From the NCBI GenBank assembly GCA_000827205.1, contig KN832563.1, positions 17,768-81,767 on the forward strand: DNA of 64,000 nt, read 5' to 3'. Below the pieces are notes generated by a model that worked only from the letters and a program-made list of their open reading frames with translations, searched no databases and was not told the DNA's origin. This document shows, piece by piece, positions 7,345-64,000 of the stretch. The DNA comes from Plicaturopsis crispa FD-325 SS-3. Taxonomy: Eukaryota > Basidiomycota > Agaricomycetes > Amylocorticiales > Amylocorticiaceae. Position 1 is the first letter of the stretch. Each line of letters starts with the position of its first letter. Both the position numbers and the translations under genes were made by a program.

Positions 7345-7800
7345 TGTCGCTCTCAGTCGGGGCTCGTTGGCTCGGAGTCCTTTCTTCACACCTTTATATG
7401 ACTCGGTATGACTGCACGGCGTTTGTTGGGATTGGTCGGTCGACAAGCTGTGTTATACTATGCGACGAATGGAAGAAAGCGCGCAAAAATGTATTTCGAC
7501 GGTGTAAGCGCGCGTCTAGCTACAGGTAAACGATTGCACGATACGGACTTGCCGTACACCGAGGAGACTGCTCTACTCTGCCATCGCTCCGTTACTCGTC
7601 GCGCCATAGGTTCAGCGAACGAGTGCAGCTCTGAAAACTGCATCGACGGTGCAGAAAAAGTTCAGCCACACGAAAAGTTTTATAGGAGTTGAGTCACACG
7701 TCACATGTGACGAGTGACTCGCTTGCTCGACGGCGCGCAAGGACCTAACGAACGACATCAAGACTACTCTCTACCAACCAAGGAAGGCCGACCGACGACG

Positions 7801-18141: not shown

Positions 18142-19993
18142 TCAACCTGGTCCCTTGAAACCGCTGAGAAGGCTCTTAACCAAGGCGTCAGCAGTGTCAA
18201 TCAAGGATATAAGTAACTCAACCTCGTTCTCGTCGTGCGGGACCAGAGTCCTAATTGCCATCAAAGTCCCGCAGCTTGCCTCCGCGCGCCTCAGCATATC
18301 CTGCCAGTCATACTCCGCTGCGCTCTCCTCTGTTGGGGGCCGGTAATTGCATACACCCCTCAGGTGGCACGCGCTGGGCACGACTGTGTGGTCTATCTCT
18401 AGGAAGAGCGCGGTGGGGGAGATGCCGGAGTCTATCGCACCCAAGACAATGCCGGGTATGTGGCGGTATGCCATGTCGTCGGTGAGGTACTGGATAAAGC
18501 TCTCGTCGAGCTTGTCGCGTGGCACTCGGGAGCCCTCTGCAGATCCGGCGTAAGATCACTAGCGGGCACGGAGAGGAAGGATACGCACCTGAAAACATCT
18601 TGCGTGCCTCTTTGCATGCACGCTTGTGCAGTGGCCAAGCGAGACGCTGGCATTCCTTCGAGCAGTACAAGGGGCCCAGGCATCCCGAGCATCGTTTCAT
18701 CGTTTCATCGTCGTATTTTGAGCACTGTCATGTATGTCAGAGATTGGGCACGGCAGAGGGAAGTGTGCAGCGCACCTGTGTACGGCTACATGTCTGGAGC
18801 GCAGTGCGCCCGCCCTCCTTATCCCACGCATCGAGCAGACACAGCCGCTCCTCAGCGAGCTCCTCAAAAAACCTCCACGCTTTCCACAGAGGTCCGGTAG
18901 ATGCTTCCGTCGCAAGACCCAATTTTTTAGCTTGGCGAATGGATTTGCGCAGAGCGCGAAGGACCGAGCGGAAGATGAGATATTTGGGCAGCAATTCGGT
19001 CAGAAACCTGTTCATAATCTCGACGAGATTGCCGTGATCCGGACCACCGATCCACGCACCGGAGCGCAGCATCGCAGTGAGGAGGCCAGAGTCCAGGGCC
19101 TGCACGGCCCACGCAGACCCGTTAGTCGAATAGAAGCCATTGATGATGCTTTCGTAGCATAACACAATCGTGTCTGCTGGCAGCCCGTCCATGGCGCGTG
19201 CGTTGCTCCACGACAGTACTTGTATCGTCTCGGGGATAGAACCGCCGTTGATGAACGCGAGATGGAGAGGCCGGCACGATACGCAGGAGAGTGAGTGTAT
19301 AAGCGAGAGGTACACGCCGACGTCCTCTAGCACCCCGGCCGCCATCGCCGCGCGCAGGCGTGTTAATGCAGTAGTTGCAATCAGCGTCGCGTCGCCCCCG
19401 GCGCCATCAAGGACCTCGTGGGTAGGAGGATATGCGACCTCTTCTGCGTCCCGGTCGAGCAGCATTTCCAGCGTGACCGCAAAAACCCTAGTATGGTACG
19501 CGAACTCCGGCGATCTGTCCAGAAGCCATTGCTTTGTGACTAGCACCAAAAGTCCGGGCATGCTTCTGACAACATTGCGCAGCGCCATGCACTCGCTCAA
19601 GGCCCCCAGCGTGAACGTGATAGCAATGACAGCGGCATAACGGCCATCTTCGCCATAGGTTTCTTTAACGATGCATTTGTCATGCTCGAACTGCATCCAC
19701 TTCCAGATGTTCGGCCAGCCATCCGGCGCGAGGATACGCTTGACGAGCGCGGGGGAGCCAGGCCTGATCTGCTCGGACCCACATGCAGCGAGCACACGCA
19801 ATGCAGCATTCGTGAGTTTGACCTGCCGGCGCTCAGCTGGAGACGGCCGTGCAGACGTTGGTATCCTGGCGGGGTCGAAGTAGCGGAAGATGGGAGCGAT
19901 GGTAGCGGGCGTTACCTCGCCAGGAGCCGCTCTCTCGACGCGTCTCGCGAGATTTTCCAGGAGCGCCATTCGGGTGTCGTAGTTGGTAGCCAT
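18142..19993 (-). CDS. MYND-type zinc finger protein (expanded family, intact copy)
   Basis: Three exons (19993-18776, 18724-18589, 18536-18142) give 582 aa. The first ~400 residues are a mostly helical, repeat-like region without a family I can name. The MYND finger is split over the first intron: CSRTQ|CSKYDDETMKRCSGC, then YCSKECQRLAWPLHKRAC; its first knuckle is C-x4-C rather than the usual C-x2-C. The last ~130 residues (GSRVPRDKLDESFIQYLTDD onward) are shared with the other two copies here. MYND fingers generally bind proline-rich partner proteins; no enzymatic domain such as SET is present. Such genes are numerous in agaricomycetes and mostly uncharacterised, so function is unknown. 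It is in the same orientation as the 51.6-53.5 kb copy. Confidence 0.85.
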
Positions 19994-40050: not shown

Positions 40051-40971
40051 TTATGATATATGACTCGATGTCTTCATGATAAAAACGCAAGTTAGCGCTA
40101 GCATCGGAGACAAAGTTAGGGACAGACTCACCGATGCGTCAGGTCCGCGAGAGCCGCCCTCGACTCCTGCACTTTTATCGCCGCCTCGAGTTTGCCTCCG
40201 CCGTTTGTTCGTGCCCTTTTGCTCTTGGGCCGCAACGACAGGCGGAGGGACATAGCGCACATTCTCGTCTCGTAAGCGGAGCCAAGGTCGAGCAGGATCG
40301 GGCTTCCTTGTCGCGTAAAGGACTTCGGACGGTGGAGGCGGTAGCCTATCGGGTTCGTCCTCGATCTCCTCTTCTGCGCGAGAAACTGGACGCGGAGGGG
40401 GCTTGGTAAACGACGACACCGTGACTTTCTTCGTCTTGGAGTTGAGCGACAGGACTTTGTGTGTCTGGTTCGGAGCAGGAGCTCCAGCGGGCGTCGGAGC
40501 GCCGCCAGCGAGCGTCGGGAAGGCGCCTACGGCCCTCCGTGCCTCCTCAGCAGCACGTTCTCGTGCATCTTCTTCCCTGGACAAAGTATCCGCAATTTGT
40601 TCTTCGACGCGCACGATAAGGGAATCGCGGGCTGCCGGCGTGAGGAGCGCGGCCCTGCAGTGCGGGCACGCGTACTGGGGCAGATTCAGTGCGCAGAGAA
40701 TGAGCCCGCAGTCTCGGCATATCGGATTGAACGTGGAGAGGTCGTGTCCTCTCGCTATGGGAAATCGACGTAAGCGAATGCACGAGATTGCGGCTTGCGC
40801 ATGCGACGCACCTTGACAAAAGCAGCCTCCGCTGGGATCCTTGTCCTTTCCCGTCGACCCGCGTAAGCCATCGAGAAGTGCCTCCAGCCGGCGCACTTCT
40901 TTGCTCTTGGGGGGCTCCTTGGGTTTGCCTTTGCCTTTCGATGAGCTTGGCGTAGTTGGAGGGCGAGACAT
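40051..40971 (-). CDS. TRIP4/Rqt4-like C2HC5 zinc finger protein
   Basis: Two exons (40971-40812, 40754-40051) give 287 aa. The C2HC5 finger of activating-signal-cointegrator-1 is clear: C50, C52, H57, C66, C69, C74, C83 and C86 within GGCFCQARGHDLSTFNPICR and DCGLILCALNLPQYACPHC. The finger is interrupted by the intron after GCFCQ, at a conserved phase. In yeast and humans this protein (Rqt4/TRIP4) is part of the RQC-trigger complex that splits collided ribosomes; the same role is expected here. The C-terminal half is basic and Pro-rich with KKVTVSSFTK. A GTGAGT donor near the end (40130) could remove the last ~25 residues, which look non-conserved. An upstream in-frame ATG exists at 41046; the ATG at 40971 is favoured because it precedes the Lys-rich start typical of the family. 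Confidence 0.82.
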   Translation of the reverse strand: MSRPPTTPSSSKGKGKPKEPPKSKEVRRLEALLDGLRGSTGKDKDPSGGCFCQGASHAQAAISCIRLRRFPIARGHDLSTFNPICRDCGLILCALNLPQYACPHCRAALLTPAARDSLIVRVEEQIADTLSREEDARERAAEEARRAVGAFPTLAGGAPTPAGAPAPNQTHKVLSLNSKTKKVTVSSFTKPPPRPVSRAEEEIEDEPDRLPPPPSEVLYATRKPDPARPWLRLRDENVRYVPPPVVAAQEQKGTNKRRRQTRGGDKSAGVEGGSRGPDASVSLSLTLSPMLALTCVFIMKTSSHIS

Positions 40972-43900
40972 TCTCGGTTGTATGCGATCGGACGGCAGCG
41001 ACGAGGCTTTCTTGGTCCACGGAGTATGGTGCATGGCTAACTGCAATTTGCAAAGCTATGGACGTCGAGTAGAGGACAAACTGAGCGGGAGCCAAACGGG
41101 AGCAGAGTATAAGGATGTTGCGAGCAGAGCAGAGAATTGTGACTGCAGTGCAGATGACTGCACGAACCCGCATGCGCTACCGATCGGTTCTCGGATTATG
41201 TCGGCTAACAACAGCTAACCGTGAAAGTACGACGAAATGTCAAAGCACTGGCTTGTACGGAGGAGGGAAATTTCCATGGGACAACCGAGGTTGCCCAGCA
41301 TGATAAGAGTATATTTTCCTTGGGGAGGGACGAGGCGATACAAAAATCGAACGGTCACAACGCGGGATATTGCAGTCTTTACAACTCCGAGTGAAGACCG
41401 CGGGGCATCCGAAGCCTGTGCTCAGTGAAGTTGAGCGGTGACCATCAGTGAGCCACGAATTATCCATGTAGAGAAGCCTGTAAAGCGGATTTCGGTAAGG
41501 ACGCGGGTCGTTCTGATCAAAAGTGCAACGAATCTCACGAAGTTGAGCGTAAAAGGCTCTGCAACACAGGCTCGACTATGAGCTACGACCGCCGCGGCCG
41601 CCGATACTGTTTACTCCGCGTCTAGGTACTCCGATATACTGCAGTACGGCGCGCTGCATCGGTGGTGATAGGCAGTAAAGGGATCCGTGAGATTTCAGCC
41701 GTTCAGTTGCTGGCACTGGCCACCTATGAGATGGTGAAAATCGACCCGGCGAGTACAAGGGCGTCGATTCTACAGCGACGATACCGTGCCGGGGTATTCG
41801 CCTTTAACAACGAGTCCTGCGGCGGCGGTCTTCTGTGGAGTACGCCCCATGGGGAAGACTGCGAAATTCCATGGAGGTGTACAATGTACAGCCCTCAAAT
41901 ATCCGGGCCTACAGCTATGCGTTTTGTGTCAGTCGGTGCCGTACACGGTCAGGACGATAGAGTGCTTGCCTGAAAATTACGATTCCCATTACAGTATAGC
42001 ATATCAGTAGCCAAGCACTTCGGACACAAAACGCTGGAGGGGGCAATGGGCGAAGAAAAGAAACTGAAACTGATGAACGAGACTGGAAATTCGGAGAAGG
42101 ATAGACACCTCCGAATATGAATTTTGGACCGCTCGAGAGAATACTGCCGATCGATAAGACCACGCACTTGGTCGTCGACGACGCGACTCCACGCATGGCC
42201 TTCCGTAGGGCATCCCACACGTGCATTGGGGCTCCGTAGCTCGCGAGTCCAATAGAATGCGGATGTGAAGACCCAAGCCTCGAGGTCATGGTGTTGCGAT
42301 ACGTAGGTCGAGGGACGCTGCAAATTCCTGGCGAGCCAAGGCCTTTTCGCGGGCATGTCAGAGGGAGGCCCGAGGATCGCGCCGCCGTGTCGAACACCAA
42401 GGGCACCGCCGCTTCCTGGCAGTCTTGAGGCGCCCGTCCCCGTGCCCTGGCGAGCCTGCTATAACGGGCCGTATGCTGTAAAGACGCTGTGAGAAACCAG
42501 ACTATCACGGCAGCGTTTCCGCTGACTGCGCACCTTCAGAAAAAAATGGAAGACCTGCCAGACAGCCACCAAGAGTCGCCGCTCGTCCCTCCATTCCCCC
42601 CACCACACTCCACACCCCAGTCGCGCGGGAGACTCTGAACAGTGCTCCGTCGCACCCACGGGCGAATGAAGGTACGACACCTGCTCGCGGTGCCGATGGC
42701 CTAGTAACAGGCACAGCCAGCGATGCGCACGCATCTACGAGTTTAGAACAGAACAGCCCAACAGCACCCTGCAGCGGCGCGGGAACGACCGGTATTCCTG
42801 GAGCATGGGTGCGGTCGAGTGATTGTGGGACCTGTGTACACCGCTCGTTGCGTGATTCGCGGGGACTGCCTGCGTGATTTGCGGGGGGAAGCCGTCCTCG
42901 AGAGCAGTGATTCCACACGGGGGGTTGATTGAACGCAATGGGTGATTGAACCAGTGGGTTGATTGGACACGGGGATGGCTGATTGCGCACGGAGGAGGCT
43001 GATTGGACACGGGGAAGGTTGATTGGCCACAGCTGGGGTGCTGATCGACCCACGGCCTGACCCACCACGCTCGCCGGACGCGCGGTGGCAGAGGACGTTG
43101 CGATGTATGTGATTCAGATCCGGGGGGTGTGATTTGGGTCCTGGTGGATGCCGTAGACCGCGAGAGAACATGCGCCGCGGGTCGCGAAAGCGCAGAAATC
43201 CTGTGAGAAAACATGCGGGTTCGCAGTCCGCCATGCCGCTTCTGCCTTTGTTTTCGGCTGGAAAAAATAGAGTTTCAGTCCTGGAGGAGCTGCAAGGAGC
43301 CAGTCAGCAGAAGAGGTGGCTTGGAAAGAACGCATGACTTACTTGAGTACGGGAAGGTGGGGTGGGGTGTGTCTTCTGCGTATGTGTACCACTCGGAATG
43401 CGACGGGCAACGACGGGCAACGAAATCTGCCGAGGTGTAGACCAGCAACTATCCGAGCTTGACAGCGAGAAGCATGTATTGCTCCACGACAGCGCATCAC
43501 GTAGCTCGGCGTGGATGAACGATGCGGAATGCTTATGAACGTCGACTGCTCAGCGGCAGCACTCGACGACCGACCTCCATAAGCACTCCCACCCCTCTGT
43601 TTTTTCTTCTAATGCGGCTCAAACGGGAAACCATAGCGTCCTTCGCGAAAAGGAAACACGCTGTCTCTCGCAAAAAAAGAAAAGGAAACGCCCTTCGCGA
43701 TGTGCGAAGACAGAAGGCCCCTGACGCATAACGTACTTATATATAGGATGCCAGACGAAGTAATGAGTTCGCCACGGTAGCGTCTCGCACTGCGTAGAAG
43801 CAGCTATGCTTTCGTTGAACTGCCGCAATTGACGATGAACCGGTGGAGATATGGAAAGATGGGAGAGTGAATAGACATCGGACGGATCGATGGGCAAATG

Positions 43901-45357: not shown

Positions 45358-46917
45358 ATGGCTTCGAGCAGCGCTGAGAATCTGCAGTTCTCCTCCCCGT
45401 CTCATCAGCATCAGCAAACACAGCTCCCACACATTTCCTATTCGCCCCATTTCAGGATGCAACACTAGTAAGCTTTCCCCTTAAATTCCCCGGTTCTCAT
45501 CTTTCCTTCTCATCTTCATACAGCCAGGATCCCCCATCTCTGCCCCTGCCATCCGACAACCAGGACTCCCGCCACGAAAACTCAACTACCTCGTTCGATT
45601 TGCGCGCATACGAGCCTCGCTTCACCTCTGTCGACGGCAGCGGCCCAGCTTTTCGTGATCATCCTGTGAGTCCGTACCCATCCGGTTCAATCGAAAGCGC
45701 TCATCAAACACTACAGTCGTCTTTTCGCGATCCACATACTTCCCTTGACTATCCATCGCACAGACAAATGCCTCTTCGCGTCGAATCCTCCATATCGCTG
45801 TATGTGCATTTTCTCCAGCTACCGTGGCGAGCCACTCACCGCAACCAAACATAGCCATCGCCGTGCCACTGGTCCCTACGACCATTATCAGCGCCGGCCA
45901 TCCTCCCCACCTATCGCTACGCTTTCCCAATCCCCGTCCCTCTCCACATCCTCACTCGATCGCTCAGCCGTCAACTCTCCAGCACCAAAGCACCGTGCTT
46001 CCCCGCCACACCACGCGTCGCACGCTTCTCCGTACCCGCAGAACAGCTACTATTCGCAAAACCAACCTCCGCCTCCGCCTGCCCACTACAACAACAGTCA
46101 ACCGCCCCGAGACAGTCCGGACTCGTCACGCGGATACTACAACGCGCGCCCGCCGTTTGAGCACAGGCGCGAATCGCACGAGCAAATGTCCTACCACAGC
46201 TACCCCGGTCCGCCCCCGTCTGTGCCGAGCATGGCTCCTCCGAATGGCGGCGGTGCGACGTATATGCACCCGGGCCACAGCGTGCACATCACGTACACCG
46301 ACGACGCGTCAACGAAGCTGAACGACCGCACACGCCGCCGCTGCTTCAACTGCATCACGACCGACACGTCCACCTGGCGCCGGTCAAACCTTAACCCGGG
46401 TAAAGTCGTAAGTCGCTCTTCCTTTTGCCCAGCGTCTGCGCCACCCGATCCTGACCCCACCCCGCAGCTATGCAACAAGTGCGGTCTCTTCGAGCGCACG
46501 CACTCGCGGCCGCGCCCAGACCAATTCCCGCACAGGCGCGGGCCGCTCGCCCAGTCGTCCCTGCGATCACGCACGCCCCCGGGCCCGTCGCAGCAACAGC
46601 AGCAGCAACAGGTCTCGGCGCCGCAGCTGCCGCCGATCCAGAGCGCGGTGCAGGCGCTGCCGCCGTACCACTACCACCACCCGTCGATCGCGCCGCTGGC
46701 GTCCGTGCCCGACGAGCGGCGCGCCTACCACGCGGACACGCTCCCGCAGATCCAGTCGTGGCACAGCCCGCCGGTGACGCCTGCGCCCCAGCAGCAGCAG
46801 CAGCAACAACAGCAGCAGCAACAACCACAACAGCATGCACCGTCACAGTCGCCGCGCACGCAGCCGTCGATGCCCCCGCCTGCGCGGCGGGATTCGCGCG
46901 CGGAGGACTCGGCGTAG
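45358..46917 (+). CDS. GATA-type zinc finger transcription factor
   Basis: Four exons (45358-45467, 45524-45799, 45819-46407, 46468-46917) give 474 aa in phase. The single finger (C304, C307, C327, C330) reads CFNCITTDTSTWRRSNLNPG, then KVLCNKCGLFERTHSRPRP and FPHRRG; the intron falls inside the zinc loop just before the second Cys pair. The NPGK-loop and ERTHSRPRP tail are typical of one basidiomycete GATA group whose members regulate nutrient or light responses; which applies here is unknown. Flanks are Pro/Ser/Tyr-rich and disordered. Two CAG/CAA tracts encode poly-Gln (around 46590-46615 and 46789-46833). Intron 2 is only 19 nt by this model (45800-45818), which is very short; a longer alternative cannot be excluded. 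Confidence 0.82.
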
Positions 46918-51627: not shown

Positions 51628-53503
51628 TCATACAATTTTTGTCTCTCGAAACCATTGTGTTTGTAGCAAGTTCGCGGTCCGGGACAAAGAGATACCGACG
51701 TCAAGCGCTGATATTAGGCCCTCCGCACTAACCTCGTCCAGAGGTACCGAAATTTTCATCGCCATGTGCTTCCCGTTACTTGCCTCACAGCGCCGCAGCA
51801 CGCCTTCCCAGTCGCGTTCGCCTCCACTCGCGTCGGGCAGAAAAGAGTGGTCCGATACACGCGTCACGTTGAACGTGTTGGGTATGACGGCGTAGTTCAC
51901 TTCTAGAACGAAGGTGCTTATGGGTACGCCGAACTCAACTGCGTCTTTGACGATGTCGGGCAGGTGGCGATATACTTTCAGGTGCGAAATCCACCCGATG
52001 AAACTCGTGTCGAGCGTGTTCTGCGGCACCCGTGACCCCTCTGTAGGTGCATCATCAGATTATTGACGACCAAAAAAGTGGCAAGGGATACGAAGCGCAC
52101 CTTGTAGCATCCGACGATGCTCTTTGCAGCCGCGTTTGTGTTCCGGCCAGGCCAGTCGCTGGCACTCCCTCGAGCAGTATAGCGGGGACAGGCAGCCCGA
52201 ACAGCGTTTCAGCTTATCATCCTCGTATTTCTTCGAGCACTACTCTATATGTTTTAGAGCAATATCAAACATAGGGATTTGTGCGTACCTGAGTGCGGCT
52301 GCACCTCTGGAGCCAAGTGCGCCCGCCCTCCTTATCCCACACATCCATCAAAGAAAGCCGCTCCTCTGCAAGCGAGAGAAACTTATTCCACGCGCCCCAC
52401 AAAACTCCGGTTGACACTTTAGTCCCGAGGCCTTTCTTCTTGACTTGGCGGATGGACTTGCGTACAGCACACAAGACTGAGCGAAAGAGGAGATACTTGG
52501 ACAGCACCCTATCTAGGAGGTCCGTGAGGAGCTCTACCAATTCGGAATGGTCGACGATGGTGATCCATGCAGCGGACTGAAGTATTGCGATGAGGAGGCC
52601 GGAGTCCAATGCTTGTACAGCCCAAACAGCACCGTTGCCAGCATAGAAACCCTTGTGAATAATGCTGAAGCATAGAGAGGCTTTCTGTGTTGAAATTGCG
52701 CCCGCAGGACGCGCATTCAACATGATTTTCAAGATCTCGGGGATGGCGCCTTGGTTGAGGAATGCGAGATGGAGAGGTCGGCATGAGACACAAGAGAGAT
52801 TTCGTATCAGATTCAGATGCAGCTCGATCTGCCCGAGCACTGAGGCTGTTTCTACTGCCGCACGGAGACCTGCCAGCACGGTAGTGGCAACCAAGGTCGC
52901 ATTGCCCCCGGCACCATCGAGGACCTGGGGAACGCCGGGATCTGCGAGGTCATCTGGGTCCAAGAGGGCGTTCAGCGCGAGCGTGGCTCCTGTAGTCAGA
53001 TAATCGAGCTCGGGGGGCCTCGTTTGAAGGAATAACACTGTGACGAGCTGGAATGTCCCGGGCGTGTTTATGACAGCTTTGCGCGATAGTGTGATCTGGC
53101 TCAAAGGCCATAGCGTCATTATAATGGCAATGCTGGCCCGTTCATTCTGCTCCTTATCAAACCTAGACTCCTCTGAGATACACTCGCTGTGAAGGAATTG
53201 GATCCACTTCCAGATATGCGGCCAGCCATCAGGTGCGAGAATGCGCGCGACCAGCGCGGGCGAGATGGCTAGGTGTACAGGCCCACACGCGACGAGGACA
53301 AGTAGTGCAGAAATAGCAAGTTCCACCAGCTGATGGTCAGCCTGGGATGGTCGAGAGGATAGAGTCGGTATTTTAGCGGAGTCGAGGAAGGGAAAGATGG
53401 GTTCGATAGTCGTGGGGGTCATATGTATAGCAGGCGTTTTTTCGACGCGTTTCGAGAGATCGTCCAGGAATTTTTTTCGGGAAGCATGGTTTGGTGCGGC
53501 CAT
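51628..53503 (-). CDS. MYND-type zinc finger protein (expanded family, second intact copy)
   Basis: Three exons (53503-52289, 52239-52101, 52040-51628) give 588 aa, the same intron positions and phases as the copy at 18142-19993. Finger: CSRTQ|CSKKYEDDKLKRCSGC, YCSRECQRLAWPEHKRGC, again with a C-x4-C first knuckle. The helical N-terminal region and the ~135 residue C-terminal part (GSRVPQNTLDTSFIGWIS onward) match the other copies at clearly diverged identity, so the family has been duplicating for some time. No sign of disruption. Function unknown; protein-protein interaction through the MYND finger is expected. Its 5' end lies about 600 bp from the large element at 54115. Confidence 0.85.
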
Positions 53504-54106
53504 GGGTGCGTCTGTTCGAATTGCTACAAAACTTGAGCAAGCTTCAGACCTTCAGCTCAAGCGCGGACATGTCACATAAGTATGTACCGTGGAATTCGGT
53601 GGACAGTTTTGGACTCACCTCCGATGCTAGTACAGAGTACGCGTTCAACGTCTAACGGCTGCACTCTCGTCCGAGTCTGTACCCATGGAAGTACAGTAGG
53701 TAGTTTCGTCAGATTTCGTTTCGAATCGACGATCACGAACAATCGTGCTTACTTGGACTCTGGCTTTGCCTCTCAATCGGTGACGCCCAACTCGTCTCCA
53801 AGTTCTCTTCGTCGATTCACCGTTGTAGTCTTTGCTATCGAGGAATCCGCAATATGGTCCGCCTTCAAGTTCAAGGTGGCATGCGTGGTCGAGTCTGTGG
53901 CTTCGGTACGACTGTGCTTCTGAAATACTCTGATTGAACCGTTTGACAAACGCCTCTCGTGACGGACGTCGTCGAGATCTACGATAACGAAGACGGTGTC
54001 TGCACCTGGTCTGCATGCTCGGTGACTCTATCGCACGCGCGACGGACATGATTCCTGTCGTGTCGGTTCTTCTGCTCGGAGCTGCTGAGTCGCAGGCATG
54101 ATAGCA
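53504..54106. other. Spacer between the MYND gene and the 9.6 kb element
   Basis: Open frames exist on both strands but none is recognisable. The element is inserted at its right edge. Confidence 0.3.
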
Positions 54107-54114
54107 ATCGCAGT

Positions 54115-54147
54115 AGGCCCCGGGAAGCTCACCCATTTTCGTGTCCG
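54115..54147 (+). repeat. Left TIR of the 9.6 kb element
   Basis: Thirty-three bases beginning AGGCCCCGGGAAGCTCACCC, identical to the reverse complement of 63666-63698. The target duplication ATCGCAGT precedes it at 54107-54114. Confidence 0.95.
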
Positions 54148-54368
54148 CCGAAATGGCCAAATTTGGCCCTCAAATGTGCTATAATTTTGGCCTCAAATAT
54201 GCTACTAGGGGTCGTCGCACGCGCCGACTTGAACCTTGCTTGGTGTCCGACGACCCCGCTCACAGTCCTTAAATCCCTTGACAGTTAACCGTCGCGCAAC
54301 CCAGAATATGTATTATCCCCCTTTTTCGAGCGTCATGTTGCTCCCGTACCCTACTCTGTCGCCTATGT

Positions 54369-57048
54369 CTAGCACCAGCACCTGTCCATGTTATTTATCA
54401 TCGCGGCAACCACTGGAGACGCCCCCGCAAGCAGCCGCTCTGACACTTCACCCAACTCCTCCCCAACACCCACAGCGTCACGCATCACCCGCCACGGCGC
54501 AAATAGCACCACACGTGCCAGATTGTACAGTTCCGTGTCCTCTTCCCGACTCGGAAACGCTGGCCCTATGAACACCGGCACCCGCTCTACCTGCCTTGCG
54601 TGAAGCAAACGCACGTGCCCACGCCAATCACCGGCTTCGTCAACGTAAGGGATGCGGGGACCCATGAAAGGATGTCCATACACTGGGCCGCGGGAGATGC
54701 TGTCGTAGGTGTCCAGTGTAAATTCCATAAAGCTGAGCCTGTCCAATGTCGAGCCCCTTGCCATGTACGCAGACACCTGTAGCGCCTTCCGTCAGCAACA
54801 CAGCATCACACGCGTTTGCGACGCACTCACTTGCTGTTTTCCCAGCGCCACCCCCTCCGCGGCCGCCCTCGGCCACCTTGAATCGCAAGTCAGTGCCATT
54901 GCTCAAGTCGAAGCACCTCCCGACTCACCCCACTCGCTCAGGAAATGCGCCCTCCATTTCTCGCAGGAGCTCGTCCCATCGCACGTCGACCGTGTCATGC
55001 GACACCAGCCTGCCGCTCCCACCTAGCATATGCGCGCAATCCTGCACCAAGTTCGTGCCGCCCCCATGTGGTCGCTGGAGCCTGTCCGCTTCGCCATCCT
55101 TGGTCATGTAGTTAAGCACCTTGTCGATATACCAAGCCCCGTCAGTCACGCCGTTCTCTTTGGCGGTCAGGCCGAGGACGTCGAAGTGGTCGAAGGCCGT
55201 CTCTGCGAAAGCTTTGTAACGCGTGTGTGCGGAATCTGGCTGTGTCATCACCCCCTGCTGCGGCTTGTGGATGGCCACCAAGTCGTGGGCCCGAGCTCGG
55301 AAGTCGGCGTTGTTGAGGAGCGTCCCCATCCGTGCAATCGACGCAGAGCCAGCATTCCACAGCAGCAGGTGGAGCTTGACCTTCAGCAGTCCATCCGGCT
55401 CCACCACCGCCGCATACGCCTTTACCTTCCCAAATACCCTCTCGCCTGTCACTGTCCGCCCCACGAGCTCGCTTAGCACTGCACGCACGACCCGCTGGCT
55501 TCGCACTGTGTGGGCGTACACAGACTCTTCCGTGCCCCCACTCCAGAACGTGTTCGGCCCCCACCTTCTCTGACTCACCGCCCAAAGCCAAGCGTCCTGC
55601 ACGTCAATCTCCATGGATATCGTCGGCTCTCCAAGTCGCAGTAGCATGCCACGCATCGTCGCCCTGTCTCTGCTCCGGCGGTCGACGGGTCTGAGCTCCC
55701 CCTACGTCGCGGTCAGCCTGCATCTGGAGGTGTTGGCGGCCGGCACTCACCATATCCACGGGCCCGGATGCTAAGAGAAGGTGGTGTGCGAGGATCAGAA
55801 AGCCGTTGCTCATGCGCCACCGTGCGTCCCCGTGGTCCAGAAGCCACCGTACGTGTGCTTGCACACTCACCCCGTCTGCGGTGCCCAGCACTCCGACACC
55901 AAATGGCCAGAGGTCCGGATAGGCCGCGCTCGTGCGCTCTGGCGAGCCTGCCAGTTCGACATCAAGGTCTTCCCCATCGTTAGCGTCACATCTGGAAACA
56001 GTGCGTCCTGCCCACCTCGGTTTGGTGGCACGGGCGCCGGCCTTTCCGTCTCCAGCTTGGCATGCTGCATGAATTCTGACGGTATCCCGTCTTCCGGGAG
56101 AGACCACAAGGCGTCGACGTCCAGGCGGATGCGTGCGTAGAGCGGGTGAATCTGCGCCAGCTTCTGCACGGCTTCTCCCACGTACCACCGTCTCACCACC
56201 AGCTCTGGGAACTGCTGGTTGTCGCTAAGCACTCCACGCTCTCCCTCGCTCCCGAGCCATATCTCAACCCGTCCAGCGAGCGTCTCTGCGGCCAGTGGTA
56301 GGGAATGCGGTCGTTCCCCAAACGATGGCTGCTCCCCGCATACTCTGTAGTCGATCTGCCACTCGCCCTCCAGCCGTTCGCACTTCTCTCTTTTTGTAGT
56401 GATCACAGGGACCACCAGCTGGTCGAGGCCAATGCACAGGCGCTCGGCCATCGTCAATCCCTGGAGCTCTCGTGGGACGTCACCTGCCCAGAGCCCTCTC
56501 GAAAGTGCAAAGGGGGGTCGCTCACCGCTGACCAAGAACGAGGAGCAGGTGGCGCACACCCACGTGTCTGCGCGCAGGGTGCCTACGAGCATGCCCCCCA
56601 CCAGGACGTGAGCCGGATGCGTTTCCGATGGCTTCAACATCTCAGCCCCTGCCACCATGCGCAAGTCAAGCTCTCCGCCATGCCCCACATCTCCCCGTTG
56701 CATGCACACGTTGCAGACGACTGGCCTCGGTTTGTTGCTCAGGGTGTGGGCAAACTTGTCGAGCCCGCACCGGAGGGCGGTGCCCGTGGGTGGATGGAAA
56801 CACTCTCCCTCCGCGGCGGAGGGAGGGTCTGGCGCGCGGCGTAGCTCCTTGTACCGGGCGGGCAAGTCCGTCAACCTTTGTTGATCGAGCGCAGCGTCCA
56901 AAATCTTTTTCTTCACGTCTTCTGGTGCGTCGGCCACGCTGTTCATGGTCTGAATTCTTCCTATGTGCCCAGGCAAGGAATATGGAAGGGCGGCTGCCAC
57001 AATCTCATGTGTCGTCAGGAAAGCCAGCGCCTCGTATAGGTCGTCCAT
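54369..57048 (-). CDS. Helitron-type Rep protein (DUF6570 plus Helitron_like_N) without helicase domain
   Basis: Five exons (57048-56016, 55947-55751, 55701-54929, 54876-54831, 54776-54369) give 818 aa; all four introns are in phase and the first has a CTAAC branch site. Order: N-terminal region with Cys pairs C112/C115 and C165/C168 (DUF6570-like, RPPFALSRGLWAGDVPREL), YPEDG-type block LWSLPEDGIPSEF, then AAYPDLWPFGVGVLG and the Rep region. Where Helitron Rep proteins have H-x-H in GTLHxHxLxW, this one has KVKLHLLLW: the first His is K519, H521 is kept. Tyr candidates Y601/Y608 lie in AWYIDKVLNYMTKDGE. The end, LARVVLFAPWRVMRD, matches the place where Helitron proteins continue into the Pif1 helicase; here translation stops shortly after. 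The start is the first in-frame ATG; the frame stays open to 57153. Confidence 0.8.
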
Positions 57049-57194
57049 ATCGAAAAGCAGGAGGTGCAAAGCCCCGACGGCCGCACTGCCCTCTAGCTCC
57101 TTTGACTGGCGAGGCACCTTTGCATCCGCCGCATCCCCCCACTTTTTTTTCACCCCCTCTTTTTTTTGGGCAACCTTGTTCTTTACGCCTCGTC
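57049..57194. promoter_or_regulatory. Probable bidirectional promoter between Rep-like gene and paralogue 1
   Basis: Only 146 bp separate the two divergent start codons. The stretch contains runs of T (CACTTTTTTTTCACC and CTCTTTTTTTTGGG) and no other gene. Shared promoter use is inferred from the layout alone. Confidence 0.4.
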
Positions 57195-58212
57195 ATGCTG
57201 AACCTTCCTCTGCTCAGGGACACTATTTTTCACCCCCGAGACACGTATCTGGCCGCTCCTGCATTCACCCGGGACTATGCTTGGAAGGATGACGGTGGAG
57301 GCGCACGCACCCTTTGCGACCTCCGTGGAGATCCCCTGCCCCTGTCGGTTGTTGGGTCGGTGCAGGCCCTCACCTTGAAATGCACTCCTATTGGAGACTT
57401 TGTCGCGGGCTATGATGAAGCACTTTCGGCGGCGAACTACCGCTTTGTCCTGGAGGAGCCTCTTGAGGATGCCTTTCTGGACGACTTCCGTCTGGCGTCT
57501 ACCCGCCTCTCCGATATGCAGTCTCCGTTCCAGGCAACCAGCCGTGGCATGATCTCAATGGGCACGATCGTGTTTCAAGCCCCCGTCTTTACACCTCGGG
57601 TCAGTTTTTTTTCACCCTGTCTCTGGAAATCCACGCTTACGCTTTCTGGTGAGCCAGCGGGAGCCTCCGCCCCAGACAGTGGCCGTCTATCTTGAGGATC
57701 CCGCCGTTAGTGTTGAGGTATACGGATCTGTCACCACCACCCCACCCGCTGATATCGATGCAGAACCAGGTGAGTCTGCTACTTCCCGCAGCACCAGTAG
57801 ACGGTATGCTCACCAGCCTGTAGACGGCACCGACACTCTCACCCTGCAGTGGCCCGTGCATCCTATGTTCAGATCTCAACTGCAATCGGTCCAGACCACC
57901 CACCGGGTGAGCCCATTGCCGGTGCTGTACAACGGTGAACTTGTGGACCCAGTTGAAATCCAAACAACCCTGGCATCTGCACTCGTTGATGTCCACTTCA
58001 CCCTTTCTCACCGGCCGACAGGCAGGGGCGGCCACACATTCACCGCGACCGCTACAACTCTTCATGTCCTGCGCAAGTGCACCCAACCCCCGCCCCGGCG
58101 ATCGACGTCTCAGCGGCAGTCCGCACAGGAGGCTGCAATACGATTGTTCCGCAATCACTCAGTCGCAACCACCGATGGACCCCAAAAGCGCATCCGCCCG
58201 AGCAGGCGATAA
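57195..58212 (+). CDS. Element-borne protein of unknown function, paralogue 1
   Basis: Exons 57195-57599, 57658-57769 and 57824-58212 give 301 aa. It aligns with the next gene: LKCTPIGDF against LNCSPTGNY, ANYRFVLEEPLEDAFLDDF against AKYTFTIGVPDEPAFLPDF, and THRVSPLPVLYNGELVDP with ALVDVHFTLSH against THKVNPLPVYQDESFVDP with ALVEVHFSLKH. The last two introns sit at equivalent places and phases in both. The alternation of short beta-like stretches suggests a single-strand-binding or OB-like fold, but I cannot show it. Families with the (A/G)ALVxVHFxLxH motif occur widely in agaricomycete genomes as unnamed proteins (from memory). The C-terminus is basic (RIRPSRR). Confidence 0.75.
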
Positions 58213-58861
58213 AAGTCTTGCCTTTGCAAAGTGTCTGTCAAAAGCGATGCCCCTCTCTGCCCTGTCAGGTTTGTCGCGCTGTTCTTTTGCCGCCCAGCAC
58301 TGACCGCCTCCTATAGTTGTCCGATATGTCTCCCCCGAGGAATGGCGGGCCCATTTTTTCCGCACCACCGAAGCTCAGGGGCGTGGCTGTCTTCACATCC
58401 ACCTCCCGTTGTTCTGTACGCCTCTACTACTTATTTGCCGTTTATTGTTTTGACCGCAGTGCGCAGTGCCTCCGATGTATGCCCTTCCGGGCCCGCCCAC
58501 CGTTTGGGTCACGGTGAACCCCTCTGCGAACGATCCCCAGCTTGCGGCATAGGGTGCCTCACATTTTCATCTTATACTACACGCCCCCGATCGTTGTGAG
58601 TGGTGCCCTCAATAAATGCCCTTAGACGCCCCTCCTCCGTACGGCTCCCAACGAACTTGTCCGTAAATGAGCCCCAGATCGAGACAAGAGGTGCCCTGTT
58701 TTCTTGTCTTATCTTATACGCTCTTCGGTGCACCTCTCGGCTGTGGTATTCATCCGTTTCAATGCACTCGCCGATCCCATTTAAGTCCGCCTGTCTTTCC
58801 GCTGTACGCAAGCCTACCAAAAAAAACTCCCACTTTTCTGTGCTCCTCTTACCGCCCAACC
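58213..58861. other. Spacer between the paired paralogues
   Basis: A possible tiny reading frame MSPPRNGGPIFSAPPKLRGV at 58326 has no relative in the window. The words GGTGCCCTCA(A)TAAATGCCC and AGGTGCCCTG near 58600-58695 are repeated. Otherwise this is the promoter region of paralogue 2. Confidence 0.35.
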
Positions 58862-60054
58862 ATGTCCTCCGTGCGTGTTCTGTCGGTGCACCGCTTTCTT
58901 TCCCCTCACATTTGCATTCAACAGACGTTCAGCTCCGTCGACCACCGCGCTCAAATGGTCAAGCTCCAGTCCTACGTTGCCGCCGCCACTTACTTGTCCA
59001 GTGTTGGGTGGAAGCAAGCGGGCTCCGGAAACCGCCTCATCGACGCACACACCGGGGACGAGGCCGTGTCCGTCGTAGTCGGTAAAGTCATCGACACTCG
59101 CCTGAACTGCTCCCCCACGGGAAATTACAACGGCAAGTTCGGAAAGCTCCAAGGTGCAAAGTACACCTTTACCATTGGAGTTCCCGACGAGCCCGCTTTC
59201 CTGCCGGACTTCAAGAAGGCAGTCGACAACCTCCGTCTCGTTGAGAACACTGTGGCACAGACGAATGACCATCGCAATTTCGTTTCCGTTGACAAGCACG
59301 AGACGCGAAACATTCGCTTTTCTGCAAACGTCTTTCAACAGAGGGTCAGTGTCGCTCCGTTCTTCACGCGCACTCTCATTTTAACTCTTCTTGCTCTTCA
59401 GGCGGACCCGCTGCCTGTACCGGGCAGCGTCAACGTGGCTGATGCCGACAGTGCCGGTGAGAGAACACACCCCGCTGGCTGCCTCTGTGCATTCTAAATT
59501 TTCACCGCACAGTCGACTTGGAGACTCAGAGCTGGGTCGTCCCTGCCGAGTTTCAGGCAGAGCTCGAGGCCCTCAAGTACACGCACAAAGTCAACCCGCT
59601 GCCCGTCTACCAGGACGAAAGTTTCGTCGACCCGAGCTTCGTGCAGTCAAAGCTCAACGGTGCCCTGGTCGAAGTTCACTTCAGTCTCAAGCACTACCGC
59701 ATCGGTACCAACGATGCCTTCGACAGCTTCAGCGGCGTCATTGAACAGGTCCTCATCTTGAAGCTGGCGCCCCCTCCCCGACTCAATGGTTACAAGCGCA
59801 AAAATGTGCGGGAAGGCCCTTTCCGACCCCGCCCGTCTTTTTCAATCACGCCCACGGCACCCGTCACCACCTACAAACCCACGGGTGTGACTCTTTCAGG
59901 AGCCGTCGCCGAGGCTGTGCCGCAGCAGCTCCCGGATAACGCAGAGGGAGGGACGAGCACTCCGAAGGGAAAGGACGTTGAGGGAAGACAGAAGCCGGTG
60001 ACTGTGGGGCGCCCAACCAGAGGCAAGTCGACCGTGCCTAGTGCCGCCGCCTAG
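58862..60054 (+). CDS. Element-borne protein of unknown function, paralogue 2
   Basis: Exons 58862-58870, 58925-59344, 59402-59456 and 59513-60054 give 341 aa, starting MSSTFSSVDHRAQMVKLQSY; reading through the first 54 nt intron would also stay open and give 359 aa. The domain shared with paralogue 1 covers about residues 50-250 and includes LNCSPTGNY, YTFTIGVPDEPAFLPDF, VNPLPVYQDESFVDPSF and NGALVEVHFSLKHYRIG, then a strand-like end VLILKLAPPP. A ~90 residue disordered basic tail (GYKRKNVREGPFRPRPSF, ...KGKDVEGRQKPVTVGRP) follows and could bind nucleic acid. Function unknown; conservation of both copies inside one element suggests each has a distinct job or that they form a heteromer (inference). 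Confidence 0.78.
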
Positions 60055-60117
60055 CTACAGTATTGTTCTATATGCTATTGTTGAATACATTGGTTCTCGA
60101 GCCGAGCTATTGCACAT

Positions 60118-61409
60118 CTAACCCCGAGCTCTCTTCTTTGGCGGTGAGTTCCCAGGCTCACTCGCCCTTGTCTTCTTGGCCCTTTCTGCCTTCAACAGGG
60201 CACGCTCCTCTCTCAACCTCTTTCGCTCCTCCTCCAACTTCTTGCGTTCCGCCGTTAGCCGGTCCAGCACGTTCTGCAGCCGGTCCTCGGCGCCCGTAGT
60301 TTGGGCAAATGCTTTCTCTTTCCACAAGCGGGGGGCGATGTTCGACACGGCAGTAGTCATTTGGACCGACGTCCCCCACCGAGTGGCGTTGGGCCGGCTC
60401 TCGCTGTGGAGAGTGGAGTGGAAGTTGTGCTTACCCCGCCAGAATAGATCGATCAGGCCCGAAGCACTAGGGCGTCATGGGTAAGTTGTAGGCCTAAACA
60501 ACCCACACAAAACACTGACCGTTCGAAATCAACTCCAACACCGTATTCTCCAAAGAGGAACCCACCGCCTTGCACGTCCTTGTGATCGACGTCCGGAGTG
60601 AATTCGTAGGATGTGCCACGACCCTCCTTTCTCTTGTGGGATGTCCACCACAAGCCAAAGGCCACCGCGATCTTGTCTTTGTCCTTGTGTTGGTAATTAG
60701 CAAAGTCATCATTGGTGATGGTCAGGGAGTTTGCGAACGGCTCCTCTGAGCTCTGGCCGTCGAACGCGATGTCGGCGAAGGCGGGAATGTGGTTCCTTGA
60801 AAGAGTGTCCGGTCAGCCTGAGCGCACGTCTGGGCCACCGCCACTCACTCCTCTGCCAGGGCAATCATTTCTTTGGCACCTCCAGGCATCAATCTTAAGA
60901 ATCGATCCCGGAAGAGGCTTTGCACCCTGGGCAGTTCCCCTGTGAGCTTTGCAAACCTGCGCCACATATCAGCATATGTGCCACCACTGCAAATTCAACT
61001 CACTCTTCGGCCTTGTCAGGCTTCGTGGCGTAAGTCACTATGGACTTGCCCGCCTCCATGCTGCCGTGCCACCCCGCAGCGTACATCCGGCCTTCCTTCT
61101 TGCGGTTCTCCGACCGGTCCCCGTGCGCGCCCATCTTAGGCCCCGAGTGTGCCTGTGTCAGGTCATTCGTTGTGAGTGCTGGTTCAAAGTAAGCCGGCCC
61201 CAACGCACACTATTGTTATTGATAGGGGCAACACACCCCGCCCACTGCATCAAGACTGTCAGATTCCGCTGGATGCTCAACCTCTCTTGCTCTGCCATGT
61301 CCGTCCAGGGCCTGCTCGAGACTGAGGGTTTCGCCGAGGTGACTGACGATGAGAAGGCCAAGGTAGAAGTGTCCCGGTGCTCTGCAGGTTTCTCTGTCTG
61401 ATCAAACAT
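60118..61409 (-). CDS. TET/JBP-like 2-oxoglutarate/Fe(II) dioxygenase
   Basis: Exons 61409-61233, 61209-61004, 60956-60849, 60795-60520 and 60466-60118 give 371 aa. The first junction (donor GTTGCC) is uncertain; the other three share phase 2 and are secure. The metal site is HxD at H200/D202 in NYQHKDKDKIAVAFGLWW, and the distal His with its following basic patch is in LFWRGKHNFHSTLHSESR (H272 most likely). Between them GGGFLFGEYGVGVDFER is the double-stranded beta-helix core, with the layout seen in fungal TET/JBP-like proteins. TET/JBP enzymes oxidise 5-methylpyrimidines in DNA; in mushrooms their genes are known to have spread with DNA transposons. A strongly charged coiled-coil (about 310-355) and basic tail KKRARG end the protein. 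It converges on paralogue 2 with 63 bp between stops. Confidence 0.72.
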
Positions 61410-61520
61410 GGGTAGGCCTTGGACAGGCAGCGTGCGGCGCTAAGAAACCGGGTGTGTGTATGTTCTCTGCGTTGAGTTGGGGGTAGCTTACCGTGACGCT
61501 GATAGAACCATAGGGCCAGG
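61410..61520. promoter_or_regulatory. Probable bidirectional promoter between TET/JBP-like and Pif1-like genes
   Basis: Only 111 bp separate the divergent start codons, repeating the arrangement at 57049-57194. Inferred from layout; no motif shared by the two intervals was identified. Confidence 0.35.
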
Positions 61521-63222
61521 ATGCGCAATCGAAACAACAAGAAGAAGAAAAAGGACGAGCACGACGCCCTGCGGCGGGAAGTGTACGACGAGGTGCGCAT
61601 GTCAGCTGGTGATCCTGCAATAGAGCTAACGGGACCAGGCGGTGGGCCTGCTCCTCGGAGAGCATAACGTGAAGACCCACCTGCTCGTCAGGAACGCTCA
61701 CTACCAGGCGAAGCTGGAGGAGATCGAGCGGAACTCCCCTACGCCAATCAATATGAATGACGACACTTTCAAAGGTCTGAACACGGTGTGGCTGTGGGAA
61801 CTGTACACAAGGATGAACAGCCGGGATCTGCTCGCGCTAACGGCAACATCAGGAGTCGCAGCAACTTTGATAGGGGGCACTACATTGCATAGCTGGGGTG
61901 GCATACAGGCACGAAGGAAAGAACACTCGCCAACAGCATCGCCAGCACAACCACGTGCAGAACTAGTTGCACGGAGGATACGAAATGTCGCAGGGAAACT
62001 GACGCTCATCATTGACGAGATATCGATGGCTACAACAGACATTCTCTCAGAGGCATCAGCAATGGCAGGAAAAATTCGAAACGAAACAGCAGACTCGACA
62101 GCACCGTTCGGAGGGTTGAATGTCATTCTAGTCGGCGACTTTCATCAATTTCCACCTGTCTCCAATGCCAGCGCAAGCCTGTACAACCTCCGTCCGGTGC
62201 GCTCTGCCTCAGTATTGGGCAGGGCACTATATCTGCAGTTTGACACCGTCATAATTCTTCGTCAGCAGATGCGGATCAAAGACAAAGGCTGGATGGACAT
62301 ACTGGGTCGGGTCCGTGTAGGGGAGTGCACCGAGGACGATCTCCATGAGATCAGGAAACTTGTTCTCACCAACGAAGAGTGCGAAAAGCCCGACTTCACG
62401 TGCGAGCCATGGTCGAAGGCATATCTCGTAACCCCACGACACGCGGTGGCCGACCCATGGAACCTCGAAGCTCTCCGGCGGGAGTGCAGCGGCAGTGGTC
62501 ACATACGATATGTGTGCCCCGCTGAAGACTGCATCTCAAAGACGCGAGAACCGTTGACGATAGGCCAGCGGTTGTTGGTAGCTCAACGAAAAACGGCGGA
62601 CGCGGGACGGTTAGCGGATGAGTTGACGATAGGCATTGGAATGTCTGTCATGGTCACATGGAACGTGGCCACAGAGGCAGATCTGGCGAACGGGACAAAG
62701 GGAACAATAGTGGATTTGACTCTAGACTCGCGTGAGGAAGGACCAATCGTAGACGAAGAAGGAAGGGCGTACCTCAGGTATCCACCCGCAATGGTCATGT
62801 TCAAGCCAGACCGTCCAACACAACACACGCTGCCGAACTTGGCTGACGGTCTCATTCCACTTTTCCCAATGGAAGGGCTGTTCACGATAACAGAAAGTAG
62901 GGGCAAGCGGATCACAATTCGGCGTCGACAGCTTGCTATCATGGCCGGCTATGCATTCACAGACTTCAAGTCACAAGGACAGACACTGGAGAGACTACTC
63001 GCCGACATTGGAAAGGTATCCTCCGGTTCTCTTAACCCTTTCAACGCGTATGTTGCACTTTCACGCAGCAGAGGTCGCGACACGATCCGTCTGCTACGCG
63101 ACTTCGACGACAAATTATTCACACAGCACCCATCGGAAGATTTACGGGTTGAAGACGCAAGGCTGGAGGCGCTGGCAAGTGAGACGCTCGAGAGGTGGAA
63201 GGCAGGCATGTTTGAGTTGTGA
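61521..63222 (+). CDS. Pif1-family helicase lacking the Walker A segment
   Basis: Two exons (61521-61592, 61639-63222) give 551 aa; the intron has a CTAAC branch site. Helicase motifs: Ia-like LTATSGVAATLIGGTTLHSW (92-110), Walker B LIIDEIS (D150, E151), motif III GDFHQFPPV (190-198), LRQQMR, and C-terminal AGYAFTDFKSQGQTLERLL plus NAYVALSRSRGRDTIRLLRD (motifs V and VI). The expected Q-motif and GxGGTGKS/T Walker A loop that normally lie 30-40 residues before motif Ia are absent; instead there is FKGLNTVWLWELYTRMN. The sequence before it (KKKKKDEHDALRREVYDE, HNVKTHLLVRNAHYQAKLEE) also differs from Helitron helicases. No exon that could supply the loop is seen upstream. ATP hydrolysis is therefore doubtful. 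In Helitrons this domain is fused behind Rep; here it is a separate gene on the opposite strand. Confidence 0.8.
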
Positions 63223-63531
63223 ACAAGGAGACGTTGACAGCAGCGGGAAGGACACAGGGCACGTAGGTGGCACTTTGTATATACATGTTTGTTTTTGGCA
63301 GGTCACGAGGGCACGCCACAGATACGACATTTTGAGTCGGTATATCAGTTGCGCATGCTTGGTACATGTTGACACTGTTTGGCACGGGCGACCGAGGGAG
63401 GGTTAACAGCGCCACAATTGTGACATGGGAAAGACCTTGTCAAGCAAGGTGATTCGGACAAGGGTTTACTATATACAGGTGACACGCGGGGCGGCGCCTC
63501 CGGCGGGGTACATACATGTCAAAATTTTTCG
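63223..63531. other. 3' end region of the Pif1-like gene
   Basis: Presumed untranslated region of the Pif1-like gene and start of the right subterminal zone. GC-rich word GGGGCGGCGCCTCCGGCGGGG at 63488-63508 is noteworthy; nothing coding. Confidence 0.35.
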
Positions 63532-63662
63532 GCGCGCTTTCGCGCGCATGCCCTCAAATATGCTATAACGGACATGTATATGCCAAAATTTTCCTCGAAT
63601 CGCCCTCAAATATGCTATTCCGGACAAGAAAATGGCCGATTTTGGGCCCTCAAATATGCTAT
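63532..63662. repeat. Right subterminal repeats and GC hairpin
   Basis: A perfect small hairpin (GCGCGC, loop TTTC, GCGCGC) at 63532-63547 is followed by three copies of GCCCTCAAATATGCTAT at 63550, 63602 and 63646, separated by GGACATGTATATGCC- and CCGGACAAGAAAATGG-type spacers. Two weaker copies lie in the left arm. Such arrays are usual transposase binding sites. No CTRR tail follows the hairpin, so this is not a Helitron 3' end. Confidence 0.7.
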
Positions 63663-63665
63663 TTC

Positions 63666-63698
63666 CGGACACGAAAATGGGTGAGCTTCCCGGGGCCT
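63666..63698 (-). repeat. Right TIR of the 9.6 kb element
   Basis: Reverse complement identical over 33 bp to 54115-54147. The second copy of the target duplication ATCGCAGT follows at 63699-63706. Confidence 0.95.
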
Positions 63699-63706
63699 AT
63701 CGCAGT

Positions 63707-64000
63707 GGCCTCGTTCCAGGTGAGTGGAGTATCGCAATCTACGAAATCCCTTACTCACTTCGACGGCTGTTCCGCGAAGTCTGCTTTCGACGGTGCTAGT
63801 GCTGGCATTGGCGATACATACCACCTTTTGAAGGACTTAGATCGCACTCATTGGTACCCCCAAAGAGCTGTTTGTAGCGGCACGCGTCCCCCGACTCTTG
63901 ATTGCCGCCTCAATACTTACCAACGCTCGAGCTTTGCAGTCGTCACGTCACGGAGGGTGTCCGTTCTTATTCTCGTGCACGACCACACGACTATCCCACT
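63707..64000. other. Right flank of the element
   Basis: Resumes the host sequence interrupted at 54114. A GTGAGT word at 63721 could be a splice donor of a gene hit by the insertion, but no coding region could be established on either side. Confidence 0.3.

Follow-up and report, generated by a model that had tools for sequence, protein, structure and literature searches.

The element and its genes

We analysed a 64-kb stretch of contig KN832563.1 from the basidiomycete Plicaturopsis crispa FD-325 SS-3, referred to here as the window, in which positions 54107-63706 (9,600 bases, 9.6 kb) hold an element bounded by terminal inverted repeats (TIRs) of 33 bp and flanked by an exact 8 bp target site duplication (TSD) (Table 1). 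The TIRs start with AGGCC and are complementary at 33 of 33 positions. In a repeat search of the region, no other inverted pair came close to this one (the 34 bp arm that the search returned includes one extra pair, a chance match from TSD letters), and no second long, near-perfect inverted pair turned up inside the element. Resampling 53501-64000 with an order-2 Markov model 200 times gave longest perfect inverted repeats of no more than 22, with a mean of 13.9. With up to three mismatches allowed, the first 32 bp of the TIR match twice in the 64 kb, at the two ends of the element, and never in 100 shuffles. Perfect 33 bp TIRs and an exact 8 bp TSD are the anatomy of a recent TIR-element insertion, and on these grounds we regard the element as a recent arrival of the cut-and-paste type.

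Close to both TIRs lie short direct repeats resembling CCCTCAAATATGCTAT, all on the plus strand, with five matches at up to two mismatches where 0.02 are expected. Within the 64-kb window, no further copy of the element was found by DNA comparison (two stretches of about 20 bases, E 0.04 and 0.4, were taken as chance) or by protein comparison of three of its gene products, G2, G3 and G4. When the flanks are joined with the element removed, a minus-strand frame of 199 amino acids (aa), as well as shorter frames, spans the insertion site.

Five genes, G1 to G5, were modelled between the TIRs, each with GT..AG introns of 46-58 nt and a single terminal stop. Introns of this size hint at a fungal genome, and the base composition at an Agaricomycete. 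The models were spliced by hand with splice sites picked to hold the frame, so their openness is partly by construction: in intron 2 of G2, for instance, the frame was lost with one acceptor and closed with the following one, and an alternative three-exon model of G3 with a longer first exon closes likewise. As an unspliced control, 200 order-1 resamples gave longest frames of 447 aa at most and 232 aa on average; the longest plus-strand frame, 530 aa within G5, is longer than any of these, and the longest minus-strand frame, 441 aa within G1, falls just short of the maximum. The ends and the five in-frame spliced genes given by a preliminary description of this locus are thus borne out. G1, which encodes a Rep-like protein, and G5, which encodes a Pif1-like one, are separate genes on opposite strands; their starts lie more than 4 kb apart, and they read outwards with the other three genes between them.

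Table 1. Features of the element, with coordinates in the window
Feature	Coordinates	Strand	Exons	Length	Remarks
TSD, left copy	54107-54114	.			ATCGCAGT; exact match to right copy
TIR, left	54115-54147	+		33 bp	begins AGGCCCCGGG; 33/33 complementary to right TIR
Subterminal repeats, left end	54162-54205	+			two repeats, CCCTCAAATATGCTAT-like
G1	54369-57048	-	5: 57048-56016, 55968-55751, 55701-54929, 54876-54831, 54776-54369	825 aa	DUF6570 and Rep-like region, altered HUH motif
G2	57195-58212	+	3: 57195-57599, 57658-57769, 57824-58212	301 aa	no family match; paralogue of G3
Short open reading frame	58304-58450	+		49 aa	between G2 and G3; HUH-like motif EAQGRGCLHIHL (context HFFRTTEAQGRGCLHIHL)
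G3	58862-60054	+	4: 58862-58870, 58925-59344, 59402-59456, 59513-60054	341 aa	no family match; paralogue of G2
G4	60118-61134	-	4: 61134-61004, 60956-60849, 60795-60520, 60466-60118	287 aa	Tet-like 2OG-Fe(II) dioxygenase, charged C-terminal tail
G5	61521-63222	+	2: 61521-61592, 61639-63222	551 aa	Pif1-like helicase lacking Walker A
Subterminal repeats, right end	63546-63662	+			three repeats, CCCTCAAATATGCTAT
TIR, right	63666-63698	-		33 bp	33/33 complementary to left TIR
TSD, right copy	63699-63706	.			ATCGCAGT; exact match to left copy

The Tet-like, DUF6570 and Pif1-like proteins

By its match to the Pfam family PF20515 (residues 9-193, E 7.4e-43, bit score 147, cut-off 27), G4 is a Tet-like 2-oxoglutarate- and iron-dependent (2OG-Fe(II)) dioxygenase, and its gene sits between the TIRs, that is, within the ends of the element. 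This identity was missed in the preliminary description, and it ties the element to the known TET-bearing (TET+) transposons of fungi. Fungal TET+ DNA transposons, Helitrons among them, were surveyed in 2025 (Kojima 2025, PMC12730594), and that survey gives an HxE motif as the hallmark of the PE type of TET. Inspected by eye, G4 carries an HxD motif (QHKD) followed by a later histidine, and it therefore lacks the HxE of the PE type. Against solved structures (phmmer, E up to 10), G4 gave five weak, unrelated matches, the best at E 0.15, with no solved TET among them. A demethylation-type activity would be expected of G4 from its family membership. The C-terminus (60118-60370, minus strand), which lies outside the Pfam domain, is a charged tail with weak coiled-coil matches and a match to phrog_13113 (function unknown, E 0.0007), and probably forms a coiled coil.

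G1 carries DUF6570 (PF20209, E 2.5e-11 in Pfam), which we take to be a domain of Helitron-type proteins. Inspected by eye, its second half is arranged like a Helitron Rep; the whole protein gave no match to Helitron_like_N in Pfam at E up to 1, and the Rep half, searched as two pieces, gave no Pfam match at E up to 10, a setting at which the HMMER filters remove most matches above 0.1. The Rep motif of Helitrons is H-x-H. At that position G1 reads KVKLHLLLW, so that, by eye, one catalytic histidine of the HUH appears to have been lost. No solved structure matched G1 by sequence, and the Rep exon had a single, unrelated match in NCBIfam (E 0.046).

G5 matches PIF1 (PF05970) at E 2.8e-19, with coverage restricted to profile positions 37-191 of 223. 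Among Protein Data Bank (PDB) chains it matches PIF1 helicases from E 4e-22, and the alignments shown start at chain residues 44-50, presumably downstream of motif I. The match to the Helitron transposase Helraiser, whose PDB entry is the mutant K1068Q, runs from residue 1085 (E 1.3e-6) and thus begins after K1068, which we take to be the Walker A lysine. A Walker A pattern was not found in G5. A looser version, run over six frames of 61000-62100, had one match, a minus-strand GSMEAGKS that belongs to G4. NCBIfam added six weak matches below cut-off, led by the TraA relaxase (E 0.0025).

Because the Rep half escapes detection by Pfam, the HUH motif is altered by eye and Walker A is missing, neither Helitron activity can be assumed. 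The earlier proposal of Helitron-derived Rep and Pif1 parts in separate genes holds in that DUF6570 and Pif1-like proteins are encoded by separate, divergent genes; it is not supported as regards working forms of either, and the label Rep rests on DUF6570, no HUH Rep domain being detectable. With Helitron1 and Helitron2, including TET+ Helitrons, the element shares a DUF6570-type protein, a Pif1-like protein and a TET gene. Unlike in a Helitron, two separate divergent genes take the place of the Rep-Pif1 fusion, the Rep domain is undetected, Walker A is absent, the TIRs are terminal and the TSD is 8 bp.

The DUF6570 and Pif1 content could also be read as that of a rolling-circle element of the Helitron2 type that only mimics a TIR transposon by its inverted repeats and 8 bp flanking repeat, since inverted repeats near the ends are known from Helitron2 (PMC5148889). 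As described there, those repeats are asymmetric, the 3' copy being set back from the end by about 20-50 bp. In our element, by contrast, both repeats are terminal, pair perfectly over 33 bp and are accompanied by an exact 8 bp duplication; the helicase and Rep motifs are, moreover, incomplete. The terminal symmetry of the repeats and the TSD led us to reject this reading, which we hold to be very improbable.

Between G2 and G3, the short open reading frame at 58304-58450 has an intact-looking HUH motif and matches RepSA (E 0.008), ORF2/G2P (E 0.027) and Helitron_like_N (E 0.046), all below the curated cut-offs. Three versions of its motif, with the patterns chosen post hoc, arise in 0.1, 0.3 and 1.1% of 1000 order-2 resamples. 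Possibly the frame is what remains of a second, canonical Rep gene. Such a relic would suit a history in which a TET+ Helitron, or pieces of one, landed by chance in an ordinary TIR element and is now decaying, with the five genes a one-off assemblage; decay would also fit the missing Walker A and the altered HUH, and TET-bearing Helitrons have been described in Agaricus bisporus, Puccinia graminis and Pezizales (PMC12730594). Set against such a nested insertion are the single terminal stop in all five models (with their hand-chosen splice sites), the outward orientation of the Rep-like and Pif1-like genes towards opposite ends with three genes between, no sign of a Helitron1-type end in a simple scan of the gaps, and the lack of any second long, near-perfect inverted pair inside. 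We consider it unlikely.

The G2/G3 pair and the search for a transposase

G2 and G3 are diverged duplicates; their alignment (E 8e-35) covers 270 positions at 31% identity. Their first introns fall at the identical alignment position and their second introns lie nearby, and both genes are still open. Neither protein matched a family in Pfam, PHROG or NCBIfam, and neither G3 nor a G2/G3 profile matched solved chains by sequence. A by-eye likeness to the single-stranded DNA-binding protein gp2.5 of T7 remained a guess that the profile tests did not support: against a profile of 56 T7-type sequences (T7 plus 55 loci), hhalign gave G2/G3 a probability of 0.04% (E 0.9), and hmmsearch with the T7-type profile in a search of the two sequences gave G3 E 0.29, with a best domain E of 1.3. 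When the G2/G3 alignment was searched against prokaryote genome contigs, one of 121 pattern matches was confirmed, a 29-residue stretch in Amycolatopsis that was taken as chance.

AlphaFold models of exon pieces of G2/G3 were of low confidence, with mean predicted local distance difference test (pLDDT) scores of 38.5 and 47.8. Their strand orders, beta-beta-alpha-beta-beta and then alpha-beta-beta-alpha-beta-beta, are not the usual RNase H order, a weak indication at such pLDDT. A fold search with the second model (pLDDT 47.8) returned nothing usable, the best E being 1.4.

In Pfam searches at E up to 1, no transposase family, those of the KDZ, hAT and DDE/RNase H kinds included, was matched by any of the five element proteins or by ten further open reading frames taken from the gaps and antisense strands; those ten gave a single match, to NCD3G (E 0.009), which fell below cut-off and is unrelated. 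The absence of a recognised DDE enzyme, stated from the letters in the preliminary description, is upheld by these searches. We also rejected the idea that a second transposase gene is concealed in the gaps, as these measure at most 649 bp, which we judged too short for a further full transposase, and no family match was found. Outside the element, a scan of 20 of the window's 195 stop-to-stop frames of at least 110 aa (one of which overlaps the left edge of the element) yielded no transposase at E up to 0.01. Among viral contigs, no relatives were found for a 20-base TIR pattern, G3, the Pif1 protein, G4, the Rep exon or the G2/G3 alignment.

These results bear on a self-mobilising lineage, in which G2, G3 or the diverged Rep half of G1 would be a transposase too diverged to recognise, with the TET and Pif1-like proteins as accessories. 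Five open frames within a freshly inserted element speak for it, as do two diverged duplicates that share similar intron positions, stay open and match no family. It lacks any DDE or RNase H family match, the exon-piece models depart from RNase H order (weakly, given pLDDT of 38.5 and 47.8), and a catalytic triad cannot be shown from two sequences. We regard such a lineage as rather improbable.

Origin, mobilisation and surroundings of the element

The presence of TIRs and a TSD, with no transposase recognised, suggests that the descendants of the Helitron-type genes travel as cargo of a TIR element. The explanation that we favour, and hold to be somewhat probable, is a recently moved, transposase-less TIR transposon with an 8 bp TSD, whose cargo stems from a TET+ Helitron-like element and which a KDZ- or hAT-type transposase mobilised in trans. 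The interior would descend from a TET+ Helitron-like element, an ancestry that would account for DUF6570/Rep, Pif1 and TET occurring together. The ancestral Rep-helicase polyprotein would have split into two genes and lost the motifs for rolling-circle transposition, and the split-up genes would now ride as cargo between the TIRs. In this reading, the TIRs and subterminal repeats would be recognised by a DDE transposase made elsewhere in the genome, most likely of the KDZ or hAT type. By oxidising 5-methylcytosine or a related base on the element, the Tet-like enzyme would work against silencing by methylation, which we propose is why G4 has been kept. The preliminary description had left two alternatives, a new self-mobilising lineage and a large cargo element moved in trans; the latter fits better, and the former is less probable.

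Elements with comparable parts are known, and they frame this explanation. The TSD of hAT elements is usually 8 bp. Our element has an 8 bp TSD and short TIRs; a hAT transposase match is lacking. In Marasmius oreades, hAT elements that have no transposase presumably move in trans, with the help of a relative's enzyme and of TIRs common to both (PMC9674265); MarorhAT-4, -11 and -12 share with our element the TIRs and a supposed mobilisation in trans, yet they measure about 0.6 kb and lack the internal transposase section, whereas ours spans 9.6 kb and holds five genes. Active KDZ elements of Cryptococcus are about 9-11 kb long, with a TSD of 8 bp in KDZ1 and of 4-8 bp in KDZ2 and KDZ3 and with TIRs of 139-241 bp (PMC12810828). 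KDZ elements (Dileera, Zisupton and Cryptococcus KDZ1-3) resemble ours in the 8 bp TSD, a size of about 9-11 kb, the possession of TIRs and, in some, a link to TET. They differ in that no KDZ transposase match was found here and the TIR is 33 bp against 139-241 bp in Cryptococcus.

TET/JBP genes occur in Dileera (KDZ, 8 bp TSD), Kyakuja (KDZ, 7 bp), hAT7 (7 bp), Helitron1 and Helitron2, among others, and in Agaricus bisporus in Zisupton, EnSpm, Plavaka and Helitron2 (PMC12730594). Common to these TET+ fungal DNA transposons and our element is a Tet-like dioxygenase gene inside, and several TET+ classes have TIRs and TSDs. They are classed by their transposase or as Helitrons, whereas here no transposase is recognised and DUF6570 and Pif1-like genes lie inside perfect TIRs with an 8 bp TSD. 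Among the matches listed for the open-access literature, no element had an 8 bp TSD and TIRs together with TET and with DUF6570 and Pif1 in genes of their own.

Several points weigh against mobilisation of Helitron-derived cargo in trans. No transposase with matching TIRs was found in the 64-kb window, and it is unusual for an element to have five open genes and no transposase. That two diverged paralogues (31% identity) both stay open argues for the importance of the gene set to the element. The TIRs of Cryptococcus KDZ elements are far longer than the 33 bp seen here (139-241 bp, PMC12810828), and the assignment of ends that start with AGGCC to KDZ or hAT is tentative. Nor did a simple scan, run without a control, detect a Helitron1-like 3' end of the hairpin-CTRR kind in six intergenic stretches. 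A bolder reading is a distinct TIR family with an 8 bp TSD, in which the split, remodelled Helitron proteins and G2/G3 would constitute new transposition machinery, either non-DDE or of an unrecognised DDE kind, shielded by its own Tet-like demethylase; we think this quite unlikely.

If true, mobilisation in trans would mean that a Tet-like enzyme and Helitron-derived proteins have been packed into an element of the cut-and-paste type. It would give a direct picture of anti-silencing genes passing between transposon superfamilies, a transfer so far inferred for TET, in the 2025 survey, from trees and comparisons of TET gene sequences (PMC12730594). The element also raises the question of the nature of the paired G2/G3 proteins and of any role remaining to the remodelled Rep and helicase.

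Elsewhere in the window, an intronless-looking gene family of about 420 aa recurs, whole or in part, at 52120-53469, 18608-19962, 4979-5598 and 1719-2049, with about 65-69% DNA identity; two of its members had no Pfam match. Positions 150-1018, within an open frame at 1-1074, contain internal repeats of 66-86% identity. Ordinary host genes are also present, encoding ArgJ (6289-7452, minus strand), a RhoGAP (9059-10873, minus), a C2HC5 zinc finger (40054-41055, minus) and a GATA zinc finger (45670-46914, plus).

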